Shown here piece by piece: positions 5,434 to 34,717 of a DNA stretch of 35,467 nt (positions are counted from its first letter, which is position 1; each line of letters opens with the position of its first letter). A model generated the notes under the pieces. It was not told where the DNA came from, made no database searches, and worked only from the letters and a program-made list of their open reading frames with translations. The DNA is taken from assembly GCA_016200205.1 (NCBI GenBank), contig JACQFF010000238.1, forward strand, positions 1 to 35,467, in the 5' to 3' direction. The position numbers and the translations under genes are program-made. This DNA comes from Planctomycetia bacterium (GTDB taxonomy: Bacteria > Planctomycetota > Planctomycetia > Pirellulales > PALSA-1355).

Positions 5434-5455
5434 GCGCGGCGTAACAAAACAACTT

Positions 5456-5497
5456 AAGGCCATCGGGCGACGTCGAAACGTTTCCCGTTGGCCTTTT
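5456..5497 (+). terminator. Rho-independent terminator of hppA
   Basis: Arm AAGGCCATCGGG (5456-5467) pairs with CCCGTTGGCCTT (5484-5495) with one mismatch in 12 positions. The loop is 16 nt, and the T-run spans 5494-5497. It begins 23 bp after the hppA stop. Confidence 0.75.
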
Positions 5498-5597
5498 CCG
5501 TTGCGCACCGACGAAAACAATTCATCCTTGCTTGCACATCGCCAGTACCTACAATTCGTGCTGAAGCGCGATACTTGGGAAATCGAGGAATGACTCA

Positions 5598-6488
5598 ATG
5601 AGCTGGCAGTCCGACCAACCCTCTGGCGCGATCCGACCCGGCAATTCCCATGCGGGCGTCGCCGAGACCCCGATTCAAGCCGAGGTGGTGCCTGCGAAAC
5701 GTGCTCCACGACGCGGGCGATTGAGGGTGCCGATCCTGCTCTTTGTAGCCACCTGCTTCACGACGTTATTCACGGGCGGACCGGCGTACGCCGGTCCGCT
5801 AATGTTCATTCTGCTCTGTCACGAATTTGGCCATTACCTGCAAGCGCGCCGTTACCATGTTTCGGCCAGCTTGCCCTATTTCATCCCCATGCCCATTGGG
5901 GATCTTGGCACGATGGGGGCGGTGATCGCCATGCGCAGCAACATGGGCGATCGCAAGGCGCTGTTCGATATCGGAATCTCCGGCCCGTTAGCGGGAATGG
6001 TGCCGACTTTGATTTGTTGCTTCGTGGGCTTGCAATGGTCCACGGTCGTCGAACTTCCGCGCGGCGGTGGCCATATGCTGGGCGAGCCTCTGCTGTTTCA
6101 GTTTTTGGCGAGTTTGCTTTTTGGGCCGCTGCCGGCCGGCAAGGAAATCTTCCTACACCCCTTGGCCTATGCCGGTTGGGTCGGCGTTTTGATCACGGCC
6201 TTGAATCTCTTTCCGATCGGCCAACTCGATGGCGGGCACGTGCTGTACGCGCTCTTGCGGAAGAAAGCACGCCTGGTGGCCTCGGTCCTGTTGGCGGTGG
6301 CCGTGGGGGCCGTGCTTTTGACACAAAGTTACCAATGGGGGCTGATGCTGGTGCTGTTGCTGGTGATCGGACCAAACCACCCACCCACGGCCAATGACGA
6401 GGTGCCGCTGGGAGCCGGCCGGATTGCCTTGGGTTGGCTCACGCTGATGTTTGTGATCGTCGGCTTCACGCCAACCCCATTTTCGTGA
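5598..6488 (+). CDS. Site-2 protease family membrane metalloprotease (M50)
   Basis: A 296-residue multi-pass protein of the S2P/M50 family, which cleaves substrates within the membrane. The zinc motif HEFGH is at residues 75-79. The second motif, LDGGH, is at 210-214 and follows NLFPIGQ, with Asp211 as the third ligand. The N-terminal ~45 residues are hydrophilic, and no PDZ domain is seen between the two motifs, unlike RseP. The family also includes the organellar EGY-like branch, where the FIPMPIG and GPLAGM segments are typical. The start ATG has GAGGA at 5585-5589, 8 nt upstream; an ATG at 5590 runs into a stop after three codons. The substrate cannot be told. It is convergent with smc. 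Confidence 0.92.
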   Translation: MSWQSDQPSGAIRPGNSHAGVAETPIQAEVVPAKRAPRRGRLRVPILLFVATCFTTLFTGGPAYAGPLMFILLCHEFGHYLQARRYHVSASLPYFIPMPIGDLGTMGAVIAMRSNMGDRKALFDIGISGPLAGMVPTLICCFVGLQWSTVVELPRGGGHMLGEPLLFQFLASLLFGPLPAGKEIFLHPLAYAGWVGVLITALNLFPIGQLDGGHVLYALLRKKARLVASVLLAVAVGAVLLTQSYQWGLMLVLLLVIGPNHPPTANDEVPLGAGRIALGWLTLMFVIVGFTPTPFS

Positions 6489-6549
6489 GCGGCCCGCCGG
6501 GGATCAGGCTTCGCGGTTTTGTTGTCGGACCCCCCGTCGCCACGGACGC

Positions 6550-9500
6550 TCAGGCGGCTTGCGTCTCGTCGTTTGTCCCGGCCGCTTCGTCGGACTGGCT
6601 TTCGCGGACATTGAGGATCTCGCCCGTGTCGCTGACGTCCTCGAATCGCACCGAAACCCGTTTCGACACACCCGACTCCTGCATCGTGATGCCGTAGAGC
6701 GTGCTGGCGCAAGTCATCGTCTTTTTCGAGTGCGTGACGACGATAAACTGGGTCCAGGCCAGGAACTCTTGCAGCACGCTAATGAATCGTTCGATATTGG
6801 CTTCATCCAACGCTGCGTCGACTTCGTCGAGCACGCAAAAGGGGCTGGGACGGCTGCGAAAGATCGCCAGCAACATCGCCACGCAGGTGAGCGTTTTTTC
6901 GCCACCGCTCAAGAGCGAGATACTGCGCGGCTCTTTGCCCGGCGGGCGGGCCACGATCTCGATGCCGCTGTCAAGGATATCAACCCCTTCGTCGAGCACG
7001 ATATCCGCCTGTCCACCGCCAAACAGCTTGCGAAACAGCGATTGGAAATGACCTCGCACCAACTCGAGCGTTTCGGCGAACAGCCGCCGACTGTCGGCGT
7101 TGATCTTGCCGATGATCTGTTCCAGCGATGCCTTGGCCGCGGAGAGATCTTTGTGTTGAGTGGAGAGCGTATTGAAGCGGGATTCCAATTCCTCCAACTC
7201 GGTAAGCGCGTCGAGGTTCACGCCGCCGATGCTGTTGAGTTTTCCGCGCAAGTCGGCGATCTCTCGCTCGACCTCCGAGCGCTCTTGAAGCTCCTCGGCC
7301 GACGGTTCGTGTTCCAGTTCGGCCAGCTCGATGCCGTAATATTCGCGCAGCCGGTCGGCCAGGGTCGTGCGTTCGTGGCGTACTTCTCCGGCGGCCAGTT
7401 CCTTGGTGTGCAGCCTGGCTTCAAGTTTGCGAATCCGCCCTCGAAAACGCCCAACGTCTTGAGCGAGTTGAGCCTTTTGTTCGCGCCACACGTCGCGCTG
7501 TTGGATATCTCGGACGGCGTCGGCCGCGAAACTTTCCTTGCGCAAATAGAGCTCGGCCAATTCCGATTCGGCCTGCAGAATATCTCGTTCGGCTTGACGC
7601 AGCCTGTCCAGGCACACTTCAAGCTGAGAGCGGCCGTCAGCCAAAGCTTTCCCGCGTTCTTGCTGATCGCGTTCGAATTGGCTTTTCTGGGCCAGCAGGT
7701 GGGAGAGTCGCTGTTCGCTTTTTACGACGTCGATTTTCGTGGCGTTGGTTTCCCGATTGAATCGCTGCCGCGTTTGCTCCAATTGACTGGCACGCTCGAC
7801 TCCTTCACCGATGCGATATTCGAGCTCGGCCACCGTGCTTTCGATCTTTTCCAACTGCGAGCGTGAATCGGACAACGCCGTGATGGCGTGCTGGTGCTCG
7901 TTTTCGGCGGTGTTCAATTCCGCGTCCACCGCGGCGTGCTGTTTTTCGACCTGGGCGAATCGTTCTTCCGCGGCCCCGGCGCGGAGTCGCTGCTGGCCGA
8001 GATCTTGGCTGCTGCGCTGGGATTCTGCCGATAGCGTTTGGGCCCGCTGATCGAAAGCGGCAATCCGCTTGTCGAGTTGCGCGCACAAACCTTGTTGTTG
8101 TTCGATCTGACCGCTCATCTCGGCAAGTTGTTGGCGCAGGACGCGCAATTCGCTGCGTCGGGAGATAAGGCCAGTGGACGTGTGTCGCGGCCCGACGTAG
8201 AGCGTGCCGTCGGCGGCGACTAGTTCGCCGGCGCGCGTTACGAAGCTCAGACCGCGGCCCGCGGACTCCGAAAGTGCCAGGGCGTGGGTTAGGCTTTCCA
8301 CAATCCATGTTTTTCCCAGGAGCCGTTTGGCCAACACGGCGAACTCGGGAGCCGTTTCCACGAACTCGTCGGCTCTACCCAACACGCCACCGTGGGCATG
8401 CAAATCGAGCTGATCGAGCTGCGTCTTCGGCGGCAAGACGTCGAGCCGAATAAACCCGACGCGGCCCGCCAGGAAAGCCGATGCTTGCAAGCGAGCCACC
8501 AGCTCGCGTCCCCCGGCAACGACGAGGCATTGAGCCATTTCGCCCAGCGCCACTTCCACTAGCGGGGCCGTCTCATAATTGACGTGCAGCAGATCAGCGA
8601 CCAGGCCGCGAATTTGTCCGAATGGACCAGCCGTGGTTCCTTGGGATTGAATCAAGACTTGTTTGACGCCCGCGCTGAGCCCTTCGAGCCGCTTTTCAAG
8701 TTCGTCCAGCACGGCGGCTCGCTGCGTCGCGCCGCTGAAGCGTTCGCGCGAGCTATTGAGTTGCTCGTGCGCGTGGGCGGCCTGGCGGCGACACTCGGCA
8801 AGTTGCGATTGCACCTGTTCGAGTTCGGTCTGCCGCGCTTGCGTCAGTTCCTCGAGTTGGGCCAACGTCTGCCGCAATTGGTCGACTTCGCCGGCCAGCA
8901 GTCCGCGAGCCGTGGTCAATTCGGCCAGCCGCTTGCCGCCGCGCTGGCGGATGGCCTGCGTGGAACTGACCTTTGCCTCCAGCCCGCTGATTCGATTGCC
9001 CAGCATGGCCGCGGCTCGCAAGTGCTCCAAGTGCGCGGCACGCCGCTGTTCGTTTTCGCCGCGCAATTCATCGACTTGGGCGGTGAGCTTGGTGAGTCCG
9101 CGTTCCTCTTCGGCCAGCCGCCGGGCGACTTCGCGATGCTGCTGCTCGGCGGAAACCAAGGCGTCGGTCGTAAGCTGCAACTGCTGCTGCAAGTCGCCGG
9201 CGCGAACGCTCATCGAAGTAAGTTGTCTGCGATAACGGGCGACTTCTTCTTCCAGGTCGCGGCAGCGGTGGCGCTGGTGTTCGATGGCCGATTCTCGCCC
9301 GGCGATCCGCTCGCGATTTTGAGCGATTCGCCCTTCGCTGGATCGCATCGCCGAATCGGCTTCGCTGATTCGCGTTTCCAAAGCCAGCGTTTGACGTTCG
9401 AGTGTTTCGACCTCGGCTAAATGAAGCGTGTTTTCATCGCGGGCGGTTTTCAGTTCACCCTCGAGCAATTCCAGCTTTGCGGTCAATGTGCGCCAATCGA

Positions 9501-10191
9501 CCAGCGCGATTTGGGTGCGCAGTGCCTGCAATCGGTCCGAGTACTCCTTGTATCGCCGGGCCTTGTTGGCCTGCAAGCGCACGCCGCGAAGGCGGCTATC
9601 GACTTCATCGACGATATCCGAAAGACGCAACAAGTTTTGCTCGACGCGTTCCAACCGCCGCAGCGCTTCGAGCTTCTTGGTTTTGAAACGGCTGATGCCC
9701 GCGGCCTCTTCGAAAATAATTCTTCGATCGCGGGGGGACGATTGCAGCAGAACGTCGACTTTGCCTTGCTCGATGACGCTATAGGCTTCGGTGGCCACGC
9801 CGGTGCCGGCAAACAGATCGCGAATGTCGCGCAAACGGCAAGGCTGGCGATTGATCAGATACTCGCCTTCCCCGCTGCGGTAGACGCGGCGGGTAATGTG
9901 CACCTCGGCGGCGTCGATGGCCAGCACGCGCGGGGAGTTGTCGATGGTGAGCGTGGTTTCCGCGGCGTTCAGCGCGCGCCGCGTGGCTGAACCGTTGAAG
10001 ATGACGTCGGCCATCTCCTTGCAGCGAAGGCTCTTGACGCTCTGCTCGCCCAGCACCCACTTGATCGCGTCGACGATGTTCGACTTGCCCGAGCCGTTAG
10101 GGCCCACCACGACGGTAATTCCGCGGGGGAACTCGAGCCGAGTTTTGTCGGCAAAACTTTTGAAGCCGACGAGTTCCAGCGCCTTGAGCAT
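6550..10191 (-). CDS. smc: Chromosome segregation ATPase SMC
   Basis: A 1213-residue SMC protein, the core ATPase of the bacterial condensin that organises and segregates chromosomes. The N-terminal ATPase half has Walker [10 protein letters not shown] (30-38). Two long coiled coils flank a Gly-rich hinge around residues 520-650. The C-terminal half has the ABC signature LSGGEK (1094-1099) followed by Walker [15 protein letters not shown]. Length and order are those of full bacterial Smc, slightly longer than the ~1190 norm because of a C-terminal tail. Start ATG at 10191; no strong ribosome binding site is seen. No scpA or scpB lies nearby. Confidence 0.97.
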
Positions 10192-10364
10192 GGGGCGAGA
10201 TAGGTTCAGCTAAAGTGGAGGTTCGACCTGTGGCGCTTTAGCCCCTTGAGGCTCGGCGGCAGACAGACGCCCCATTTTATCAAGGAACCTCTTCCTGGGC
10301 TGGCCTATTTTTGGTGATTTTGCCGCCAATTCTTGCTCCAGGTTGCGTCGCCGCCAACGGACAG

Positions 10365-12077
10365 CTAGCGGGTCGATTTCCGCTGTTTCGAGGAAAACAA
10401 ATCGGGTAGCGGATTGGCGACTTCGATCCGCTCATTGGAAACCGCCGCGTCGCCGCCATCGGCCAGGGCGTCTTCCTTGTGGCGGTAATTCCGACCGCCG
10501 TCGGGCAGCGCGTCGACTTCGAAGCGGCTCGCAAGCGCATGGCTCGCCTTGGCCTGCTGCAAGGCCTGCACCACGTCGGGATACGTGCCGCCGAGTTCCA
10601 CGATCGCGCGAATCACTTCATCGACTTTGGTCGCCACGATCCGTTTTTGATCCGGCTGCCCGACCACGAATTTGGCTACCAAAACCTTGTCGTCCGCGGT
10701 TCCCTTGACGAGAATCGACTTGCCGGCCTCGAGCACGAATGGTGTTTGTAGTCGCTGTTCGTGACCGAACAACACGATCTCGGGACGGAAGCTGCGGGTG
10801 ACGTGGATCATGAGTGGGCCGGTCGTGTTCAGCACGTGATATCCGAATTGCCCGCCCAGGTTTTCACCGCGAATCAGAGGATCGTTGGCATTCATGGCCC
10901 ATAGCGAGCGGAAGGCTCCGTAGCGCGTTTCGGAACTTGGCACTTCCAGCAGATTGACGAGCTCTTCATGGGCCGCCATATCGTCGATCGTGCTCAGGGC
11001 GGCCAATGCATAGGCGCGGAAGGCAGGCTCTTCGCGGGCCGCTTGGGCCAAGGGGGCCGCGGCCTGGCTTTCGTCGAGATAGGCCAGCGCTTCGGCCGCG
11101 TAGAATCGCACTTCCGCGTCTTTGCTGGCGATTCCCTGGGCCAGGGCACTCACGGCCGCGTGACCAATGGCCTCGAGCCGCAAGGCCGCGGTCGAGGCGG
11201 TAATCGGATCGAGCAACTGGCGCTTGAGCAGTTCAATTCGAAGGGTCTGTTCGGCGGCTGATTCCTTCACCGGAATGGCCCGCACCACGCGAATATAGCG
11301 AGCGGCGTTGTCTTTGTAGCGCGGATGGATTTTCAGATCGATGCGCTCGTCGCTACGAGGGTTAGCCACGCCTTGTTTGATGCCGCGCGAAAACGTGTGA
11401 AAGCGGCGGTTGATGGCGGTTCCGATCTGGGCGCTGAGCCGGATCGACTTGTCCTCCGGCGCGATGAACAGCCCGAGATCGCGCGTTTTCAAGGCCGTGC
11501 CCCCTCCCAGCACGCGTCCTCGCACCAGCAGCCCGGGGTCCTTCTCGGCATCGGCGGATGGATCGACCAACACGGCGCCTTCGCCGCGAGCCCAAGGATG
11601 GCCCTCGTGAATCTGACCGCCGAGCACGGCCATTTCGGTCATGCGCGTTTCCATCAGCCAACCGCCTCGCAAACTCGTGGTTTCGCTGCGCGCGGGCACT
11701 TGGACCTCGAGATCGAATTTGTCTCCCTTTTGGACGCCGGGTGGCAGGAAACCTCGCACCAACACCAGCGCGGTCGTCGGCGAGGCGAGGAGCCGGTCGG
11801 GATTTTGCACGCCAATCGTCTGCAGTTCGTGCAGCAGCGTCGCGCGTTGCGGCGAGGGAGCGGGATCTTCCCCCGTGTTGTCCAAACCCGTGACCAGCGC
11901 CACGGATTCAACCTTCACATAGGTGTGTCCAAAGGGCCGGGCGACTTCGCCGACTAGCCGGGTTTTGGATTCCAACGCGGTGGAGAGTTCTTCGGGGCTT
12001 TGGAAGCGCATCGCGGGCATAGCGCATCCGCAGAGAGCGACCAGACTGCACACCAGCCACGCGTGGCAGGGCTTCAT
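10365..12077 (-). CDS. Lipoprotein with FlgI (flagellar P-ring)-like domain and HEAT repeats
   Basis: A 570-residue predicted lipoprotein with lipobox LCGC at Cys18. Residues about 50-240 resemble the flagellar P-ring protein FlgI: VTGLDNTGEDPAP followed by LLHELQTIGV, a KGDKFDLEV segment, TSLRGGWLMET and a VLGGQ-type segment. Residues about 280-400 form helical HEAT-like repeats (for example AEVRFYAAEALAYLD). A C-terminal region of about 400-530 is beta-rich, followed by a charged tail. No other flagellar gene is in the window, so a P-ring role is doubtful; the FlgI-like fold may serve another outer-membrane or periplasmic ring or scaffold. The ATG is preceded by GGAG at 6-nt spacing, which fixes the start. 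Automatic annotation may label it FlgI. Family resemblance is good; function is unknown. Confidence 0.8.
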   Translation of the reverse strand: MKPCHAWLVCSLVALCGCAMPAMRFQSPEELSTALESKTRLVGEVARPFGHTYVKVESVALVTGLDNTGEDPAPSPQRATLLHELQTIGVQNPDRLLASPTTALVLVRGFLPPGVQKGDKFDLEVQVPARSETTSLRGGWLMETRMTEMAVLGGQIHEGHPWARGEGAVLVDPSADAEKDPGLLVRGRVLGGGTALKTRDLGLFIAPEDKSIRLSAQIGTAINRRFHTFSRGIKQGVANPRSDERIDLKIHPRYKDNAARYIRVVRAIPVKESAAEQTLRIELLKRQLLDPITASTAALRLEAIGHAAVSALAQGIASKDAEVRFYAAEALAYLDESQAAAPLAQAAREEPAFRAYALAALSTIDDMAAHEELVNLLEVPSSETRYGAFRSLWAMNANDPLIRGENLGGQFGYHVLNTTGPLMIHVTRSFRPEIVLFGHEQRLQTPFVLEAGKSILVKGTADDKVLVAKFVVGQPDQKRIVATKVDEVIRAIVELGGTYPDVVQALQQAKASHALASRFEVDALPDGGRNYRHKEDALADGGDAAVSNERIEVANPLPDLFSSKQRKSTR

Positions 12078-12283
12078 GCCTTGCTCCGTTGATTATTTTC
12101 TCGCCGACACCAGGGGCACGCGTGCCTCCATGCACGCAACGATACTCCGGCATGTCAGCCGCGAAAAACCGCGAACGAGTTGCTTGAGAAAGGGTTTGAC
12201 GAGGGCGGAAATGTATTGCGCGCAGGACGTATCGTCAAGACCGATTCCGTGACAAAGCGGGCCTACAACCGTAGTTAACCAGC

Positions 12284-12299
12284 CGTGCATGTTTGCACG
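12284..12299. repeat. Short inverted repeat downstream of yidD
   Basis: CGTGCA-TGTT-TGCACG is a perfect 6-bp stem with a 4-nt loop lying just after the yidD stop. There is no T-run on either side, so it is weak as a factor-independent terminator. Confidence 0.3.
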
Positions 12300-12314
12300 C
12301 ATGCTCGTGCTAGC

Positions 12315-12554
12315 TCACGGTGGATCGTAGCCCCCCTCGCCGAGCGGATGGCAACGAGCGATGCGCCGCAGTCCTCGCCAGGTGCCACGCACAAATCCAT
12401 ATTTGTGCACCGCCTGGATCATGTAGTTGCTGCACGTCGGGTCATAGCGGCAGTTGGATCCTAGCCAGGGACTGATCGATAGCTGGTACAGCCGCACCAA
12501 GGCGACCAGGAACCACGCAGGCGTTTGTTGAATCGACGTCCAGAGAAATAGCAT
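12315..12554 (-). CDS. yidD: Membrane protein insertion efficiency factor YidD
   Basis: A 79-residue protein with the full YidD pattern: [28 protein letters not shown], a G.WRGLRRI helix and [12 protein letters not shown]. YidD is a small membrane-associated factor that assists YidC in inserting inner-membrane proteins. It is normally next to rnpA and yidC. Here rnpA is 1.6 kb upstream on the same strand, with one opposite gene between, and yidC is not in the window. Three conserved cysteines (in CRYDPTCS and RCHP) are present. No clear ribosome binding site precedes the ATG. Confidence 0.95.
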
Positions 12555-12721
12555 GCTATCGACGGTCGTGGGTAAGGAGGCACCGGCCGTGGCGCGGAGT
12601 TATAACTGGCGATTCATTATAGACCTGTCGCCAAGGAGGGTCGACTTTTGCAGGACTCGATCGGCCGTTGGATCACGCGAAGGGTCCGCCAACCTTCCGT
12701 TGGGAAGCCATGCCTTTGATC

Positions 12722-12750
12722 TTGACAGAAGGCGCGAACCGCCGTCTTAT
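12722..12750 (+). promoter_or_regulatory. Candidate promoter for the MotA/TolQ-type gene
   Basis: TTGACA (12722-12727), a 17-nt spacer and TCTTAT (12745-12750, 4 of 6 to the -10 consensus) lie 90 bp before the ATG of the next plus-strand gene. This is a sequence match only. Confidence 0.35.
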
Positions 12751-12840
12751 TCGCACCCTTGGTCTAATTCCGGCAGGCGCTGAGGTCGCGTCTGGCAATA
12801 ACTTCTCGATTCAGACTTACTTATACGCATCGGTGACTTT

Positions 12841-14118
12841 ATGTCCGTCGCTCGAAAATCCGCGTTTTCCGTGAAAATCCTCGATCTTCCGCTGTTGGTC
12901 GCGGCTCTGTTGACGGTCCTTTATTATCTGTTTGTCACCCACGAGTCGATGAAGGACACCACGCTCTATCGCTATACGACCGAACATTCGGTCGAGTACG
13001 TCATCGTGGCATTTTTCATTTGGGGTCTCACGGACGCCGCCTTTCGGGCGCTCGCGTTTCCCCGAGAATTACTCGCCCTGCGCCAGCGGTGGCTGCCACC
13101 TCGGACTGCGCGGGAGCCAGTGTCCAACGCCGCGGCGATTTACGGGCACTTGCAGAAGAAACCACGATGGTTCCAGGAATCGAGACTCGGACAGCGGCTG
13201 ATGGCAGCACTGGCTCATTTGATCGAAAAAGAATCCGCCGACGAGTTCAGCGACTATCTGCGAAACCTGTCGGATCAGGACTACGAAAAAACTACCACCA
13301 ATTACGGCCTGATACGCTTCATCTGTTGGGTCACGCCGATGTTTGGGTTTCTGGGCACGGTCGTCCATTTCGGCACCGCGTTGGGTGGCCAATCGGCCGG
13401 CGAAATCGGGGACAAGCTGCCGACGGTTGTCGCGGAGATGGGCACGGCGTTCAACACGACGACGGTCGCCCTCATTGCCGCGACCACCATGATGTTTTGC
13501 TTGTTCCTTTGCGAACGCACGGAAAAGGGGATCGTCCATGCGATCGACCAGCGGACCGAGCGCGATTTGTTGAATCGCTTCGAGGTCGCCGACGCCAATA
13601 TGACTCCCTTCCTCAACGCCCTGCACTCCTCCAGCCAAGCCAGCCTGCAGGCGATGGATACGACCATCGCGCGGCAACTCGAAATCTGGTCGGGGGCGCT
13701 CCACAGCCTGCAGCGACAGACGGAAAGGCAACAGCAATGGCAATCCCAGGTGTGGGTCGAAATCTTGGAGAAACTCGATCAGCGGTTCGAGGCCAACGAT
13801 GCCCAGCGCGAGAAACGGCTTTTGCGACTTCTCGATGCCATGGAAGACAGCCGAGAAAAGCATCGGGCTGAAATAAAAACAACCATCGATCGCGTGGCCA
13901 GCTTGCAAGCCGATTTTGCGCGTTTTGTCGAAGCCCTTTCGGGCATCGCGCAGGGCGATGGCGAGTTGGTCAGGCTCCAATCGACGCTGGCCGACAATTT
14001 GCACGTGCTGCGCGAAACCCAGCAAATCGATCAGGCCCTGCATGGGCTGACCGCGGCCATTCATCTGCTCACCGCTCGCAATTCGCCGGCCGGAATCAAA
14101 GAACACCGCGCGGCGTGA
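12841..14118 (+). CDS. MotA/TolQ/ExbB-type proton channel family protein with coiled-coil tail
   Basis: A 425-residue membrane protein. Hydrophobic segments lie at about 13-32, 51-69, 155-181 and 206-224. The last two (around TPMFGFLGTVVHFG, then GTAFNTTTVALIAATTMM) match the pore-forming helices of the MotA/TolQ/ExbB family, including the conserved Gly/Pro and Thr-rich helix. Residues about 250-410 are Gln/Glu/Arg-rich and strongly helical, giving a long cytoplasmic coiled coil not found in ExbB or TolQ. The proton-carrying partner (ExbD, TolR, MotB or ZorB type) is absent next to it, since both flanking genes are on the other strand. It could power an envelope process with a partner encoded elsewhere. 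The ribosome binding site is weak. A role in Zorya-type defence is not supported. Confidence 0.8.
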   Translation: MSVARKSAFSVKILDLPLLVAALLTVLYYLFVTHESMKDTTLYRYTTEHSVEYVIVAFFIWGLTDAAFRALAFPRELLALRQRWLPPRTAREPVSNAAAIYGHLQKKPRWFQESRLGQRLMAALAHLIEKESADEFSDYLRNLSDQDYEKTTTNYGLIRFICWVTPMFGFLGTVVHFGTALGGQSAGEIGDKLPTVVAEMGTAFNTTTVALIAATTMMFCLFLCERTEKGIVHAIDQRTERDLLNRFEVADANMTPFLNALHSSSQASLQAMDTTIARQLEIWSGALHSLQRQTERQQQWQSQVWVEILEKLDQRFEANDAQREKRLLRLLDAMEDSREKHRAEIKTTIDRVASLQADFARFVEALSGIAQGDGELVRLQSTLADNLHVLRETQQIDQALHGLTAAIHLLTARNSPAGIKEHRAA

Positions 14119-14147
14119 AATAGGGCATTGAGCCTGCCGCCGCAAGA

Positions 14148-14504
14148 CTAGGCCCGGGCCAGTTTTTCCGCTGCCCGCCGCACCAGCCGGACGAGAGCGG
14201 CTTGCAACGATTGCAAGCACGGTTCGGCGCCGGAGCGGGGGATCGCGACGATGTCGATGCCCGGCGGGAGCTCGCTACGGGACAGGCGAAAAGCCTCGCG
14301 CAGCAGTCGCTTCCACCGGTTTCGCTGCACGGCGCCGCCGACCTTTCGCGACACCGAGAGGCCGATACGGCAGTGCGAGAGATCGTTTTGGCGAACGTAA
14401 ATCAACAGCACCGCGTCCGACGCGGAACAACGGCGGCTGTAAACACGATCGAAGTCGGCGGTGCTTCGCAGTCGAAATTGAGCAGGGAAACGCTGCGAAG
14501 TCAT
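14148..14504 (-). CDS. rnpA: Ribonuclease P protein component
   Basis: A 118-residue basic protein with the RnpA signature: an N-terminal FRLRSTADFDRVY, the GLSVSRKVGGAVQRNRWKR segment and LLREAFRL. It binds the catalytic RNase P RNA and helps mature tRNA 5' ends. It starts 9 nt after the stop of the small membrane protein gene and is probably cotranscribed with it and dnaJ. The usual upstream rpmH is missing. yidD, its usual downstream neighbour, lies further along the same strand but is separated by an opposite gene. The start ATG (14504) gives a normal length. Confidence 0.95.
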   Translation of the reverse strand: MTSQRFPAQFRLRSTADFDRVYSRRCSASDAVLLIYVRQNDLSHCRIGLSVSRKVGGAVQRNRWKRLLREAFRLSRSELPPGIDIVAIPRSGAEPCLQSLQAALVRLVRRAAEKLARA

Positions 14505-14513
14505 GAACGTTCG

Positions 14514-14828
14514 TCATTCCGGCTCGTGTGCCTGAGGTTTTGTAGGTTCACGCGGAACCAGCGGCTTGCGAAACCAATCGTCCTGGTGCCGCGGCGTTGG
14601 GTGGACCGGCTTGCCCATGACGCGCCGGAAGTGCCGCCCACACAAAACCACCAAAGCCACGAGTGCCAAACCGGCCAAAATCACGCCAAGCAAGGCCATG
14701 ACAACTTTCGCCCGCCGCTCGGGATCGAGTCGGTCCAACAGCGACTTGGCCTGTTCGTCGATTGCCAAAAGCGATTGCGCAAGCGGCGCCGGGGTGACGC
14801 TCGTCAATCGCGCCAGATCGTTTACCAT
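14514..14828 (-). CDS. Small single-span membrane protein in the dnaJ-rnpA unit
   Basis: A 104-residue protein of no recognised family. The N-terminal ~38 residues are amphipathic ([20 protein letters not shown]). A single strong hydrophobic segment at about 42-63 is followed by a basic stretch ([10 protein letters not shown]) and a Pro/Arg-rich tail. By the positive-inside rule the C-terminus would be cytoplasmic. Its ATG overlaps the dnaJ stop by 7 nt (ATGGTAA), implying translational coupling, and rnpA follows after 9 nt. This tight spacing is the main reason for calling it real. Confidence 0.7.
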
Positions 14829-15793
14829 CGCAAGTCTCGCCGGGGCTCTTGAGGACGCATGCTTCGGGAGTGCGCATCCAGTTTCTTGATCAATTCGACG
14901 CTCTCCGGGTCGAGCGGCGTGGGGAGCACGATTTGAATTTCGGCGAACAAATCGCCGGCCTCGCCATTGCGCCCGGCGACACCATGCCCTTTGATCCGCA
15001 ACCGCTTGCCACTGGACGTGTCCGGCGGCACGCGGAGCGAAATCGTGCCGCGCGGGGTCGGCACGTCGACTTTGGCCCCCAACGCCGCTTCGGCCAGTGT
15101 GACCGGCACGCGCACTTCCAAATTCCTCCCGCGGCGGTGGTACCAGGGGTGCGCGGCGATGTGAACGATGATAAAAATATCGCCCCGGGCGCCGCCGCGG
15201 CCCGCTTCGCCTTGCCCGCGGAGGCGAATTTTCTTGCCCTCTTCGATACCGGGCGGAATCTTGACCTCCAAGGTGTCGACCTTTCCAGTCTTGCGGCGGA
15301 CGGAGATTTGTGCCTGTCCGCCGAGCACGGCAGTCGCAAACGGGATCTCCAGCTCGGCCGAGACGTCGGTGCCCCGGGCCGCGCCTTGCGGAGCTTCGCG
15401 GCGAGGGCGACCGCCGGCGCGGCGGAACTGGCTGAACATGTCGCCGAACATACTCGTGGGGTCGCCGGAAAATTTTTCGCCGAAGAGCTGGCTGAAGTCG
15501 ATTTCTTCGGCACCGGTCGTCCCACCGCCCCATTTGGTTTGGCCACCGCCGCCGCGCGGCCCGGCTCCTATCGATTCGAACGAGCTGCCATACCGATCGT
15601 AGAGCTCCCGCTTGCTGGGGTCATTCAACACGTCGAAGGCGCGCTGAACTTCCTGGAACTTGGTTTTGGCGTCCTTGTTCTCGGGATTCAGATCGGGGTG
15701 ATATTTGCGAGCCAGTTTCCGATACGCCTTTTGAATGTCGGCTGGCGACGCATCGCGGCTAACGCCCAGGGTTTTGTAGTAATCTTCAGCCAC
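14822..15793 (-). CDS. DnaJ-class co-chaperone without zinc finger (CbpA-like)
   Basis: A 323-residue Hsp40. The J domain spans 1-70 with the HPD motif at 32-34, which stimulates DnaK ATPase. A Gly-rich, Phe-containing linker covers about 70-135. The C-terminal substrate-binding beta domains follow from ~140 ([14 protein letters not shown], then [28 protein letters not shown] and GDLFAEIQI). The CxxCxGxG repeats of DnaJ are absent, so it belongs to the type II (CbpA/DnaJ-B) class. The start is GTG at 15793 with no obvious ribosome binding site, but the J domain begins right there. It is the first gene of a three-gene unit and is divergent from the next secreted protein. Confidence 0.93.
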
Positions 15794-25104: not shown

Positions 25105-26046
25105 TCAGGCCTCGGTGCCGGCAATGCGCCTGGCCAAACCGGGAGCGTCAAACGGCTGCTCAATATCAACCCACCGACATTCGCTCAAACTGCGGAACCA
25201 GGTCAGTTGGCGTTTGGCAAATTGCCGGGTGCGAAGCTTTACAAGCGCGATTGTGTCGGGAAGATTGCGAACGCCCTTGAAATGTTCGATGGCCTCGCGA
25301 TAGCCGACGGCTTGAGCGGCAGTGTGGCTCGGCGGGCGAGTTCGCGCCAAAAGCGCTCGAACCTCGTCGAGCAACCCTGCCGCGAACATCGCGTCGACTC
25401 GCGCGTCGATCCGCCCCAGCAATTCCTTCTTGGGCCAGCGGAGCGTAAAAACGCGACACTGGTCGGCGGGCCGCGCGCGGTCAAATTGCCGTTGCAAATC
25501 GGTAATCGACTGGCCCGTTTTCTCCCAGACCTCGAGCGCTCGAATCACGCGGCGCGTATCGCGCGGGTGCAATCGCCTGGCGCTTCGAGCGTCGACCTGA
25601 GTCAACCGTGCATACACGCTTTCGGCACCCTCGCTTTGGGCAATGGCTTGCAAGCGGCGGCGTAGATCCCAATCGGCCGGCGGCCCGGAAAAAATGCCGC
25701 GTAAAAGCGACTTCAAATATAGTGGCGTGCCGCCGACAAACAGCGGCACGCGGCCGCGATCGGCGATTTGACGGACGGCATCCCGCGCGGCCGCCACGTA
25801 CTGCGCCAAGCTGTATTCCTGGTCAGGCTCGATCACGTCAATCAGATGATGGCGCACGGCACGGCGCTCTTCAATCGTGGGCTTGGCGGTGCCGATGTCC
25901 ATGCCGCGATACAAGGCCATCGAGTCGAGCGAAATAATCTCAGCCCCCAGGCGCTGGGCCAATGCCAAACCAACGGCCGTCTTTCCGCTCGCGGTCGGAC
26001 CGGTGAGGAACCAGCAATCACCAGGGGCAACCAAAGGAGAGCTCAT
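25105..26046 (-). CDS. miaA: tRNA dimethylallyltransferase
   Basis: A 313-residue enzyme that adds a dimethylallyl group to A37 of tRNAs reading codons that begin with U. The P-loop GPTASGKT is at 16-23, followed by DSMALYRGMDIGTAKP, the HHLID segment, LFVGGTPLYLKSLLRGIF and RRVIRALEV. Length and order are normal. The C-terminal ending (RQFAKRQLTWFR) is also typical. It starts at ATG 26046 with a weak ribosome binding site, ends about 120 nt from the aspS start and is divergent from hisE. Nothing unusual was seen. Confidence 0.96.
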   Translation of the reverse strand: MSSPLVAPGDCWFLTGPTASGKTAVGLALAQRLGAEIISLDSMALYRGMDIGTAKPTIEERRAVRHHLIDVIEPDQEYSLAQYVAAARDAVRQIADRGRVPLFVGGTPLYLKSLLRGIFSGPPADWDLRRRLQAIAQSEGAESVYARLTQVDARSARRLHPRDTRRVIRALEVWEKTGQSITDLQRQFDRARPADQCRVFTLRWPKKELLGRIDARVDAMFAAGLLDEVRALLARTRPPSHTAAQAVGYREAIEHFKGVRNLPDTIALVKLRTRQFAKRQLTWFRSLSECRWVDIEQPFDAPGLARRIAGTEA

Positions 26047-26133
26047 CGATGTGGCATCAAAAATGGGGACGGGAGCTTGCGGTTATAAGTCGTAAGGGGC
26101 TGATGCGGCCAAGACTTCGGGTTACACGGTCGC

Positions 26134-26162
26134 TTGCGGACTGGGCCCTCAGAGCCTACATT
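26134..26162 (+). promoter_or_regulatory. Weak candidate promoter for hisE-hisG
   Basis: TTGCGG (26134-26139), a 17-nt spacer and TACATT (26157-26162). Each hexamer matches 4 of 6 consensus bases. It lies about 50 bp before the hisE start and is offered only as a match. Confidence 0.2.
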
Positions 26163-26209
26163 GCCAAGAATCGTAAACAATGGCAATTCCGTGTTGAAGG
26201 CGCCGATCC

Positions 26210-26572
26210 GTGGGCGATGCCGATTCCATTCTCGCTCGATTGATGACCGTGATCGAGGACCGAAAGGCGAAACCCTCGGAAAAATCGTACACCAACCGGC
26301 TGCTGGCCGGTGGCGTGGAGAAGATCGGGGCCAAAATCGTCGAGGAAGCTGCCGAAGTTGTCGCCGCGGCGGCCGAACCTGGTCCCGACGGTCGGACTCA
26401 TACCATCTACGAAGCCGCCGACGTCGTTTATCATTTGTTCGTGCTGTTGGGCTACCGCGACATTTCCTTGGCCGAAGTCGAAGCTGAGTTGGCGCGGCGG
26501 TTCGGCATCTCCGGCTTGGATGAAAAAGCCTCGCGCGCCAACCAAGGCAAGCCCCCCGCGGGAACTTCATGA
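26210..26572 (+). CDS. hisE: Phosphoribosyl-ATP pyrophosphohydrolase
   Basis: A 120-residue all-alpha MazG-like enzyme for the second step of histidine biosynthesis: hydrolysis of phosphoribosyl-ATP to phosphoribosyl-AMP. Motifs include SYTNRLLAGGVEKIGAKIVEEAAEV and YEAADVVYHLFVLL, which carry the metal-binding acidic residues. The start is GTG at 26210, preceded by GAAGG; an in-frame TGA lies 15 nt upstream. It is a stand-alone HisE without the HisI domain. Its stop overlaps the hisG start as ATGA, so the two are translationally coupled. No other his gene is in the window. Confidence 0.93.
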   Translation: MGDADSILARLMTVIEDRKAKPSEKSYTNRLLAGGVEKIGAKIVEEAAEVVAAAAEPGPDGRTHTIYEAADVVYHLFVLLGYRDISLAEVEAELARRFGISGLDEKASRANQGKPPAGTS

Positions 26573-27420
26573 ATAATCTGCGGATTGGTATTCCCAGTAA
26601 AGGCCGGCTGGCCGAAATCGCGGGCGAACTGCTGAAAGAAGCGGGCCTGAGCTTTCGCCGCCAAGAGCGCAGCCTGTTTGCCCGCTGCCGCGAAGTCCCG
26701 GTCGACATCACCTTCTTGCGCACCGAGGATATTCCAGTGCTGTGCGCCGAAGGGGCCATCGACATGGGCATCACCGGCGGCGATCTGTTGGCCGAGAGCG
26801 GCGCGGAACTGGCCAACCGGCTCGACCTGGGCGTGGGCGAATGTCGCCTGGCGGTTTGCGTGCCCGAGGAAAGCCGCATTTCCAGCCCCGCGGAACTTGA
26901 TGGCTGCCGCGTCGCCACCAGCTTTCCCAACGTCACGCAGGGCTTTTTGCGCGAGCACAAGGCCAAAGCCCATTTGGTCAATCTGTCCGGCTCGGTCGAG
27001 ATCATGATTGCGCTGGGCGTGGCCGATGCGATTGTCGATCTGGTGGAAACCGGCAGCACGCTGGCGGCCAATCGTCTGCGGGTGCTGGCGGAAATCGGCC
27101 GTTATCAAACGGTTCTGGTGCAAAACCCGGCCAATCGTCACGGCGAGCTGGCCGATCGCGTGGTGCGGCGGCTCGAAGGCGTTGTCATCGCCCGCAGCTA
27201 CTCGCTCTTGGAATACAACGTGCCGCGGGCGAAGTTGCCGGCCGCCGAAAAGATCACGCCGGGCTTCAATTCGCCCACGATCAGCGCGCTCGAGGACCCC
27301 GATTGGTGCGCCGTGCGCGTGATGGTGCGGCGCACCGAAATCATCTCCATCATGGAGCAGCTCGAAGCGCTGGGCGCCTCGGCGATTCTAGAGACCGCGA
27401 TCACCAACTGCCGGTTGTAG
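26569..27420 (+). CDS. hisG: ATP phosphoribosyltransferase, long form
   Basis: A 283-residue enzyme of the first, committed step of histidine biosynthesis (ATP + PRPP). The N-terminal catalytic domain has RIGIPSKGRL, MGITGGDLL, RVATSFPN and the PRPP-binding segment DAIVDLVETGSTLAANRL. The C-terminal ~75 residues form the regulatory HisG_C domain (ITPGFNSPTISALEDPDW, then ISIMEQLEALGASAILE). With this domain it should be the hexameric, histidine-inhibited long form that does not need HisZ. It overlaps hisE by 4 nt and ends 9 nt from the convergent amidohydrolase gene. Confidence 0.96.
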   Translation: MNNLRIGIPSKGRLAEIAGELLKEAGLSFRRQERSLFARCREVPVDITFLRTEDIPVLCAEGAIDMGITGGDLLAESGAELANRLDLGVGECRLAVCVPEESRISSPAELDGCRVATSFPNVTQGFLREHKAKAHLVNLSGSVEIMIALGVADAIVDLVETGSTLAANRLRVLAEIGRYQTVLVQNPANRHGELADRVVRRLEGVVIARSYSLLEYNVPRAKLPAAEKITPGFNSPTISALEDPDWCAVRVMVRRTEIISIMEQLEALGASAILETAITNCRL

Positions 27421-28729: not shown

Positions 28730-30943
28730 TCAGCTCGGCAACCACTGCGGCGATTGCTGGTCGATGGCCTCTTGCAACGATTCTTCCGGCGTGCGGGCGT
28801 AGGGGAGTCTTTGAAACCATAACAAGATGGCGATGCTTGCTGCGAGGCCGCACAATACGACCGGCCAGTGATAGAGTTGGCCTTCGTCGGATGCGTTGCG
28901 CATCAGCCAGTGCAACCAATGATCTTCCTGGCCCAGGGTGGGCGCGACTTGCTTGATCAGCAAACCCATCGAATTGTGGACGACATGGAATAATACGCCC
29001 GGCAACAAGCTGCCCGACTGAATTGCCAAAAAGCCAATCACCATGCCGACCAGACACGCGATTATCGACTGCTGGAAAATCGCGTGCGCGGCTCCGAAGA
29101 AAACGCTGCTCAGGATGATCGCCGTCCATTTATGCCCCACGTGTCGCAGTCCCGAGAGGATAAATCCACGGAACGCCAATTCCTCGCAAATGGCCGGCAT
29201 AACGCCGAGCGCCAGCACCATGATCCAAATGCTGTCTGGCTCGATCAGCAGGCGATCGAGTTCTTTGGCGAACTGCTCGCTGAGCGGGTACACCCGATTG
29301 ACGACTGTTTGCAGTACGTTGATGGCTGGATGCAGTGTCACAGCCAACAGCACTGCGGCTAACGGAGCGATCAACGGGGGCCTGCGCAACAACAGGGTTT
29401 GGGCCGGACTGCGGGTGAGCATGATCGTCATCAGGAGCGCCGGCGTGGCCACCACGACCAATTGCGTGACGACGGCCAACACGGCAAAATCGCGGAACGT
29501 GTGCGGCATCGGCAGGGCGAAGCTCATGAAAAATCGAATCATCAAGATCAGCACGCCGCAAAACATCGCTTCGGACACGCTGGGCGTGTTCTCGCGGTCG
29601 CGCAGCAAGTGCTTGATCCACAGGTTGATGTCCCACCGTTCGCTCTCGCGAAAGAGCACCGACTCGGTGTTGAATTGATCGGTGGCCCAACGGATCGCCA
29701 GCCAGCAACACGCCAGCGTCACCGCGACCACCAGCGGAATATAGGGTAGCACTTTGAAATAATTGCCCTCGAGCATCGCGCGCAGCAGCAGCACGACGCC
29801 GGTGATCGGAATCAGGCTATTGCCCAAATTGAGCTCCACGCCCGGCGCCATCGGCAAAATTGTCAGCGGCATCGTGACCAGCACCAAGGGCATCAAATAG
29901 TACTGACCCTCTTTGGTGCTGCGGGCAAAGGCCGCCAGGGCCAGGCAAAGCGCGCTGAATAGCGCCGAAACGGGCACCAGCGCCGCCAACAACCAGACGA
30001 TGGCCAGGCCCGGGGGTGGCCCCAAATTGGGTAACTGGCTGAGCACGAATGATCCGGTGATGGCCAGGCTGAGCAGATTCAAGATGGCCGTGGCCATGCT
30101 GAAGAGCATGATCGTCAGCAACTTACCCCAAACGATTTCGATGCGCTCGGCTGGGCTGCTAAGCAGCGTTTCCAGCGTGCCGCGTTCCTTCTCGCCGGCA
30201 CACAAATCGATGGCCGGGTAGAAGGCCCCGGTCAGGGCCCAAATCAACAGCACGAAGGGCAGAACTTTGGACCACAGGGCCGCTTTGTGCTGACCGATTT
30301 CGGCTACATCCAGCGTGGCGATCTCGAAGGGCTTGGCTGCCGCAGGAGAAACTTTGCTGTCTTTGAGGTTCTGTCGCCCGATTTCCTCGCGCCACCGGTC
30401 GAGCACCTCCGAAACCCGGCGATAGGCCGCTCTCGAGGCATCTTTTGCCAGATTCGGATAGATGTCGACATTGGGGATTTGCGCGTCCGCTCGACTTTCG
30501 CCGCTCTTGTCTTCGAGAAGTGAGTTGTGGAAGCGGGCAAATTGCGCGGCGAAATTCGGCGGGAAGTACACCACGACTTCATAGTTTCCCTGCTGCATGT
30601 CACGCCGTGCCTGCTCCAGGGGATCATAGGGAGTTCCGGCCTCCGCCGCCTTTGACGGCTGCAATGAGAGTTGCAAGAGCCGCGCCGTGCTCGGATCGGT
30701 AAACAGATTGCCGGCGAAGCGATCTTGCTCCACTAGCGGGGGCAATTCGGCGCTTACCGGCGAGCCAATCACCAGCACGCGAATGGGATACTCGCGCATG
30801 AATTGGGTGACTTGAAAAAAGCTCATTCCCAACAGCGGGTACAGCAGCAGCGGCAGCACCGCGATCATGAACAACGTGCGCCGATCGCGCAGTTGATCGC
30901 GAACTTCCCGCATGAGAATCAGTTTGACGTTCGACCAGTTCAT
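28730..30943 (-). CDS. ABC-2 type permease fused to CPBP intramembrane protease
   Basis: A 737-residue membrane protein. The first ~400 residues are a NatB-like ABC-2 permease: an N-terminal span after REVRDQLRDRRTLFM, a large extracytoplasmic domain (about 55-225), then LCAGEKERGTLETLLSSPAER and five or more spans. The C-terminal part (from about 560) is a CPBP (CAAX-like) protease with its motifs intact: EELAFR with Glu587, Glu588 and Arg592; FFGAAH with His620; HVVHN with His653 and Asn657. The ATPase gene ends 25 nt upstream, so the two form an exporter. The tail may process or protect against an exported peptide; the substrate is unknown. Confidence 0.88.
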   Translation of the reverse strand: MNWSNVKLILMREVRDQLRDRRTLFMIAVLPLLLYPLLGMSFFQVTQFMREYPIRVLVIGSPVSAELPPLVEQDRFAGNLFTDPSTARLLQLSLQPSKAAEAGTPYDPLEQARRDMQQGNYEVVVYFPPNFAAQFARFHNSLLEDKSGESRADAQIPNVDIYPNLAKDASRAAYRRVSEVLDRWREEIGRQNLKDSKVSPAAAKPFEIATLDVAEIGQHKAALWSKVLPFVLLIWALTGAFYPAIDLCAGEKERGTLETLLSSPAERIEIVWGKLLTIMLFSMATAILNLLSLAITGSFVLSQLPNLGPPPGLAIVWLLAALVPVSALFSALCLALAAFARSTKEGQYYLMPLVLVTMPLTILPMAPGVELNLGNSLIPITGVVLLLRAMLEGNYFKVLPYIPLVVAVTLACCWLAIRWATDQFNTESVLFRESERWDINLWIKHLLRDRENTPSVSEAMFCGVLILMIRFFMSFALPMPHTFRDFAVLAVVTQLVVVATPALLMTIMLTRSPAQTLLLRRPPLIAPLAAVLLAVTLHPAINVLQTVVNRVYPLSEQFAKELDRLLIEPDSIWIMVLALGVMPAICEELAFRGFILSGLRHVGHKWTAIILSSVFFGAAHAIFQQSIIACLVGMVIGFLAIQSGSLLPGVLFHVVHNSMGLLIKQVAPTLGQEDHWLHWLMRNASDEGQLYHWPVVLCGLAASIAILLWFQRLPYARTPEESLQEAIDQQSPQWLPS

Positions 30944-30968: not shown

Positions 30969-31736
<768 letters not shown>

Positions 31737-31963
31737 CGTGAGCCGGTTCGTGCCGAGTTTGCCGACCGCGTGAGTAACGGATGTGCCGCTTGTGCCGCTG
31801 GCATGGGCCGCGCAGACCGCGATCGTGTGCCCCCATGCACTTACCGTAAGGGTACCACATATTGCGCGCGACGGTGAGCGGCACTTATCCGCGAGAACCC
31901 GACAGCGCGAACGGAATTCGTTGGATTGGCACAGAGCCACCAGTAGAGGCAGTCGCGATTGCG

Positions 31964-33058
<1,095 letters not shown>

Positions 33059-34006
33059 GTTCGACTCCGCAGGGTGCCAGGCCCAGTTGGGCCGCTTTTT
33101 TGTAGAACAGTTCCAGTCCACGCTGCTCGCGCGGGCCCAAGTAGAAATGTAAGTTGTCGCGCAAATACGACACGCACTGCGGCCGAGTCAGCCCCAGTGG
33201 CCCGGCTTCACGCTCGGCGATGTCGTTCAAGTGCGCCAGTCCCGCATCGCGGGCCGCGCAAAGTGCCGCATCGATCCCATCGAGTTCGGCGCCGCTTCGA
33301 GCCACCCACATTGCGAATACGAATGGCAACTCGGCCCAGCGGCACCATTCATCGCCCAAGTCCCACACGATTTCGAACCGCCCGCCCGGCGAATGCATGG
33401 CCCGATCGCCAATCAAGAGCACCGCGTCGGCATCGGCGTCGTCCAAAGAGGAGTCCACCGGCAAGGCCAGCAACTGCGGCCGCAAGCCATGGCGTTCGTC
33501 GAGCAGGATCCGGGCTAGCGCCACGCTGGTGCGCGAGCCTTCGTCCAAGGCCAGAGTGCGGATCGACGCGATTGGCCCGCGGCTAAACAGCTTCACGCTC
33601 AACACCGGCCCACGGCAGGCGATGCAGGCGTTGGAAACGATGGTGTAAGACGGGTCGCGAAAGAACTCGATCGAGGGGATCAGGGCCACGTCCAGGCGCC
33701 CGCGGGCCAGGCTGTCGGCAAGGCGGCTGGGTAAGTCCAGCACGATCTCCGCCTGGGGAGCGTACCGCTCCATGCCGTAAATGAGCGGCTTGGTGTTGAG
33801 GTAATTAACTGCTCCTATGCGGACCTTCCGACGGTTTTTCATAGTGGATCCATCGCTCCTGCTGAACCGCCCCCGCGGATTCCCATGCGGGTGCTTGTGA
33901 ATCTTTTCACTAATCGTCATTATAAAGGCCAGCGAAACAGCGCACAGCCCATTCTCGGGCTCTATTGTTGGCACATTTGATTCCTCCACAACCGATTCTC
34001 CTTCCG

Positions 34007-34717
34007 ATGAAACCCATCGTCCAAATCTCACTCGATATCACCACGGCGAAAGAAGCTCTCGAAACGGCGGAACTTGCCATGCGAGCCGGTGTCGATTGGC
34101 TGGAAGCCGGCACTCCGCTGATCATCGCCGAGGGCATGCACGGCGTCCGGGCCCTGCGGCAGCGATTTCCCAAGACGCCGATTGTCGCCGATCTGAAGAC
34201 CATGGACGGCGGCTACTTGGAGGCCGAAATGATGGCCAAGGCCGGCGCCACGCACGTGGTAGTAATGGCCCGGGCCCACGAAGAAACGATCCGCTGCGTG
34301 GTCAAAGCCGGCCACGATTTCGGCGTGAAAGTGATGGGCGACAACATGGTTTGCGAAGACATGGTCGCCGGGGCCAGGTGGCTGGAAGATTTGGGCTGCG
34401 ATTTCGTGATCCACCACATCGGCTACGACGAGCGCCGCGGCATTGCCGCCCGGGGGCAGCGGATGCCCAGCCCCTTGGATCAATTGCGCAAAGTCGTCGA
34501 GGCCGTTAGCGTGCCGGTCCAGGCCGTGGGCGGCCTGACGCTGGAGCAGGCGGTGCGCACGCCTGAATATGGGGCTCCGCTGGTGGTGCTCGGCGCGCCC
34601 TTGACGATCGATGCCGACGCCTTCAAGACCGCCAGCGGCGATTTGGAAGGTTCGTTGCGAATGATTTGCGATAAAGTTCACAGTTATGGTGATGTTCCGG
34701 TAGGGAAAAAGAAATGA
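34007..34717 (+). CDS. HPS/KGPDC-family (HUMPS) decarboxylase-fold protein
   Basis: A 236-residue TIM-barrel protein of the family containing 3-hexulose-6-phosphate synthase, 3-keto-L-gulonate-6-phosphate decarboxylase and OMP decarboxylase. The catalytic set is visible: Asp10 (QISLDIT), Glu33 (WLEAGTPLI), and Asp62, Lys64, Asp67 in ADLKTMDGG. The late segment VPVQAVGGLTLEQAV forms the phosphate site. It may act as an aldolase fixing or releasing formaldehyde, or as a sugar-phosphate decarboxylase. The partner isomerase (PHI) of the RuMP route is not seen; instead a dehydrogenase gene overlaps its stop by 4 nt (ATGA), pointing to sugar or sugar-acid metabolism. No good ribosome binding site precedes the ATG. 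Confidence 0.85.
   Translation: MKPIVQISLDITTAKEALETAELAMRAGVDWLEAGTPLIIAEGMHGVRALRQRFPKTPIVADLKTMDGGYLEAEMMAKAGATHVVVMARAHEETIRCVVKAGHDFGVKVMGDNMVCEDMVAGARWLEDLGCDFVIHHIGYDERRGIAARGQRMPSPLDQLRKVVEAVSVPVQAVGGLTLEQAVRTPEYGAPLVVLGAPLTIDADAFKTASGDLEGSLRMICDKVHSYGDVPVGKKK

Follow-up and report, generated by a model that had tools for sequence, protein, structure and literature searches.

The question raised by this locus is whether the fold of FlgI, a part of the flagellar bushing, can be put to use where there is no flagellum. The window, by which we mean the whole stretch of 35,467 nucleotides that was analysed, carries on the minus strand a gene (10365..12077, stop codon included) for a protein of 570 aa. 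A sequence-only reading had described it as a FlgI-like domain joined to HEAT repeats and a beta-rich C-terminal part in a lipoprotein, away from flagellar genes; we refer to it as the FlgI-HEAT protein. It begins with a lipoprotein signal peptide (aa 1–18; 12024..12077, minus strand) ending at the lipobox cysteine, Cys18 (LCGC). The lipid anchor was borne out as a prediction by the invariance of this cysteine, which was found in 62 of 62 aligned orthologues. The residue after it was mostly S, T, A or M in these orthologues and never D.

A profile search against FlgI gave a significant match above the cut-off. The Pfam FlgI model (PF02119) matched aa 58–275 with E=1.2e-17 and 64.4 bits (cut-off 25.3), and with the FlgI subfamily model PRK05303 the protein scored 58.6, below the 300-bit cut-off. 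A HEAT_2 match followed at aa 289–351 (Pfam, E=2.2e-8). Among the 28 phylum-wide aligned members of the family the FlgI match was present in all 28 and the HEAT_2 match in 27, and a family profile built from these members matched the FlgI structures with E=1.4e-30, covering the part of the chain that forms the upper inner ring domain (IRU) and the outer ring domain (OR). In mature FlgI the OR comprises residues 1–11 and 160–230, the IRU residues 12–159 and the lower inner ring domain (IRL) residues 231–346 (PMC8298488). An AF2 model made from the 62 orthologues was confident (pLDDT 87.6, pTM 0.83), and its best fold was FlgI, with Z 17.7 over 197 residues (model 40–271) and a large overall rmsd of 8–9 Å that reflects the multi-domain alignment. 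FlgI chains compared with aa 40–274 (11256..11960, minus strand) showed fold Z 16–18 and an hhalign E of 3.9e-33, and this segment corresponds to the IRU and OR. The HEAT segment occupies aa 275–395 (10893..11255, minus strand). Here the model contains tandem helix pairs (helices at aa 274–395), HEAT folds matched the model with Z up to 9.7, and no FlgI match was found by profile–profile comparison with hhalign.

The sequence-only reading had treated the beta-rich C-terminal part as a separate module; it turned out to be FlgI's own IRL (aa about 419–522; 10512..10823, minus strand). The hhalign comparison of this segment with FlgI extended over 87 collinear columns and reached the FlgI C-terminus, with E=6.6e-7 for the phylum profile and 4.1e-5 for the order-level profile. 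The domain was also folded alone (pLDDT 88.8), and FlgI was then the Foldseek rank 1 match, weakly (E=0.039, prob 0.98). VIA-align placed the lone domain on FlgI residues 247–365 with Z 6.8 and 6.6 and an rmsd of 2.5 over 76 residues, values below 8 being weak if taken alone, while the closest unrelated fold reached Z 4.0. The segment was assigned to the IRL because sequence profile, domain order, domain range and fold agree. The joint alignment, hhalign and the model of the C-terminal domain folded alone led us to reject a replacement of the IRL by the HEAT block. IRU, OR and IRL thus occur in the FlgI order, and the HEAT block interrupts a full FlgI-type chain, which differs from a FlgI domain with two foreign modules attached. 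As judged from the profiles and the model, the predicted protein is a complete FlgI-type chain with about 120 HEAT residues inserted at the OR/IRL junction. Of the architecture first proposed, both the FlgI-like domain and the HEAT repeats stood, and it is their joining that has to be read as an insertion.

The location away from flagellar genes was confirmed, as a Pfam scan of the genes around the FlgI-HEAT gene in the window found none that was flagellar. The source genome is 95.8% complete. The FlgI-HEAT protein was its sole FlgI match, so the separate true FlgI for which the sequence-only reading had proposed to look was not found in it, and searches for FlgH, flagellin and Flg_bbr_C (rod/hook) gave no matches. 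A weak FlgA match in this genome proved to be CpaB/RcpC of a Tad pilus cluster. Several genomes of 96–99% completeness showed the same pattern of flagellar absences. In a one-contig genome (G167) the flagellar genes are located at several separate loci, and therefore a single missing contig is an unlikely cause of all the absences in the source genome. Closed genomes (G311, G331 and G127) keep the FlgI-HEAT protein without FlhA, FlgH, flagellin or rod proteins. Flagellated relatives (G167, G357 and G339) carry the FlgI-HEAT protein together with a true FlgI, FlgH, rod proteins and flagellins, and in flagellated relatives the true FlgI is located in a flgG-flgA-flgH-flgI cluster. As a separate observation, in one genome (G353), which has flagellin, flgG-like and flgA genes but gave no FlgH match, the canonical FlgI on contig C62 (locus L190, at about 6.3 kb) is reduced within a single open frame to the 33 profile positions at its start and the 41 at its end; either an internal stretch was deleted or the assembly is at fault.

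A tree of the common region resolved the FlgI-HEAT family and planctomycete FlgI as separate clades with support 100/99; the tree is without an outgroup, and one row (L099) is on a long branch. The residues by which FlgI meets its flagellar partners pointed in the same direction. In Salmonella FlgI, Lys63 and Lys95 face the rod (residue roles from PMC8298488). The corresponding positions are K or R in 27/32 and 28/32 planctomycete FlgI sequences, and in the FlgI-HEAT family they are mostly P at the first and T at the second (21/28), the window protein having P101 and T134. In the family, charged or polar residues predominate at the FlgH-pocket positions 46, 50, 104 and 117, and the hydrophobic pocket is not conserved. 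Several marks of a functional P-ring were not observed: flagellar gene context and co-occurrence with FlgH, rod and filament are lacking, as are the rod lysines and the FlgH pocket, and the predicted lipidation does not fit a protein that is soluble in the periplasm once its Sec signal has been cleaved. The FlgI-HEAT protein is almost certainly a non-flagellar paralogue of FlgI, and the proposal that its P-ring fold does not serve as a flagellar part held. The protein neither lacked a structural match to FlgI nor proved to be the only FlgI of a flagellated strain, placed in the basal body.

Two readings would nevertheless keep the protein within a flagellar apparatus. That it is a true P-ring protein, or an accessory flagellar ring, agrees with a FlgI homology that spans all three domains; however, the protein is present without flagellar genes, forms its own clade, has lost the rod-contact lysines and in flagellated relatives stands beside a separate FlgI that adjoins FlgH, so that we regard this reading as barely credible. 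For the source genome a true P-ring is refuted unless the genes for rod, hook and filament all escaped detection. The other reading takes the protein as the outer ring of a flagellar-type export gate (FliOPQR-FlhAB) in an aflagellate cell. The source genome does keep fliO, fliP, fliQ, fliR, flhB, flhA, flhF and a flhG-like ATPase gene (contig C299, positions 4906–15739, locus L182) without rod, hook or filament matches, but an FlhA match was absent in 7 of the 60 genomes that carry the FlgI-HEAT protein, including the three closed ones, which weakens the reading, and the flagellated relatives have the protein besides a true FlgI. An export-gate ring is therefore very unlikely. Independently of this protein, FlhA was also present in seven other genomes (G274, G257, G266, G365, G377, G295 and G360) without matches to flagellin, Flg_bbr_C, FlgH or FlgI; FlhA without these partners, there and in the source genome, represents an export gate lacking a visible flagellum.

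In a survey confined to Planctomycetota, all 40 genomes sampled from the class and 81 of 392 from the phylum contained full-length members. A clear score gap separated these members (E below 1e-53) from canonical FlgI matches (E above 1e-31). The protein was not found in many other lineages of the phylum, most of which are represented by less complete genomes. The survey of co-conserved genes revealed an association absent from the sequence-only reading, namely the adjacency of smc. In the window the gene for the chromosome segregation protein SMC (6550..10191, minus strand; 1213 aa; TIGR02168, E 2.6e-298) is directly downstream of the FlgI-HEAT gene on the same strand, with a gap of 173 bp; overall the gaps between the two genes were 3–196 bp. 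By a strict tblastn criterion smc was immediately downstream on the same strand at 33 of 41 phylum-wide loci. ORF calling added two loci beyond these (L065 and L085) and a third probable one (L082), and at another (L090) smc was 2.9 kb away. At four loci (L064, L095, L100 and L101) smc was not within the flank examined and the FlgI-HEAT protein was kept. Among 80 Pirellulales loci smc was adjacent at 70, a contig end intervened at 4, and smc was not adjacent or not found at 6. The commonest other neighbour family occurred at 7 loci, compared with about 30–35 for smc, and none was comparably conserved. No terminator-like site was found on the coding strand between the two genes, a scan that is weak evidence.

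In the window a MotA/TolQ/ExbB-like proton channel protein of 425 aa is encoded divergently from the FlgI-HEAT gene (12841..14118, plus strand); a tie to it was rejected, as this neighbour is not conserved in relatives. Elsewhere on the minus strand we noted an ABC-2 permease that carries a fused CAAX-protease (Rce1-like) domain (28733..30943), which adjoins an ABC ATPase (30972..32699), a VitK2_biosynth family gene of menaquinone biosynthesis, Mqn type (33030..34031), and two ORFs, each about 340 aa long, for which Pfam gave nothing significant (14517..15533 and 26046..27071).

These observations suggest that the FlgI-HEAT gene encodes a FlgI paralogue that is ancient in Planctomycetota, has been passed on vertically and was freed from the flagellum. 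After Sec export and lipidation the protein would reach the periplasmic face of the outer membrane, a placement we favour because Asp is absent after the lipobox cysteine. In E. coli a residue other than Asp at this position favours the outer membrane, and the sorting rule may not hold in Planctomycetota. The OR domain may contact peptidoglycan, as proposed for FlgI, whose OR has been likened to OmpA-like and secretin N3 domains (PMC8298488). Side contacts of the FlgI type could build an oligomer, either a ring or an arc, and the HEAT block would offer a partner a new surface on which to dock. Co-transcription of the gene with smc would speak for a housekeeping role tied to growth and against motility; work on the envelope while these bacteria divide or bud is the most plausible form of such a role. 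We consider the chances about evenly balanced that the protein, going by its sequence features, is an outer-membrane/peptidoglycan scaffold with such a growth-linked role. An actual ring, argued by analogy with FlgI, which assembles into a ring of 26 subunits, is rather unlikely, and the loss of the FlgH pocket and the rod lysines could also mean that a ring is never formed.

In line with that loss, the protein may be an outer-membrane lipoprotein that works as a monomer or dimer and does no more than link this membrane to peptidoglycan or offer the HEAT block to a partner, the FlgI fold being retained for stability with no ring. FlgA and FlgH, which FlgI requires, are absent in the source genome and in other members, as this reading would expect; yet all three FlgI domains are kept throughout, including the inner-ring IRL, which exceeds the needs of a simple tether, and we hold this reading to be possible though doubtful. 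Our proposal is weakest where it passes from the adjacency of smc to a role in division or segregation, which is guilt by association. The two genes may stand together simply because their order was inherited or because they share a promoter, in which case the protein would serve general envelope integrity with no tie to segregation. The FlgI-HEAT protein is predicted to be periplasmic and SMC is cytoplasmic, which places them in different compartments, and the protein is kept at the four loci where smc is outside the examined flank; however, no neighbour is as conserved as smc, and inherited order is a reading we take seriously while giving it less than even weight. The fullest form of our scaffold proposal, in which a P-ring-type outer-membrane ring of flagellar origin with a HEAT docking block takes a share in division or budding in planctomycetes lacking FtsZ and, being expressed together with smc, couples these processes to the segregation of chromosomes, is improbable.

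Within the papers covered by a literature search no description of the FlgI-HEAT protein or of its pairing with smc was found, and the protein is not named in the main text of the Planctopirus limnophila essential-gene paper. The FlgI fold itself is familiar, and what is new to us is this architecture with its lipid anchor, the independence from the flagellum and the pairing with smc. Here a full-length FlgI-type chain with a new insertion is a predicted envelope lipoprotein of phylum-wide occurrence, which is retained where flagella are lacking and stays beside smc. A component of the motility apparatus seems to have been converted to housekeeping work in the envelope, and this, should the role be confirmed, would plainly be an exaptation of part of a flagellar ring. 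Many planctomycetes are without FtsZ, and the gene is a concrete candidate for envelope organisation during their growth.

Three known systems invite comparison. The gene zipA, which adjoins smc in Pseudomonas-type genomes, likewise places an envelope protein next to smc, but ZipA is unrelated to the FlgI-HEAT protein, the planctomycete gene order is reversed and no link to FtsZ is known. Periplasmic proteins of the HEAT_2/PBS-lyase type share the HEAT_2 match and the alphaRep-like helical pairs; they are free solenoids, whereas here a short block is embedded in the FlgI fold. FlgI itself (Salmonella structures 7CLR, 7BGL and 7CBL) is the best match in both sequence and fold, with collinear IRU, OR and IRL. 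In contrast to FlgI, which is soluble after signal cleavage, the FlgI-HEAT protein is predicted to be lipidated, has a HEAT insertion between OR and IRL, does not conserve the rod lysines or the FlgH pocket, and is encoded outside the flagellar cluster by a gene that adjoins smc and is kept without flagella.
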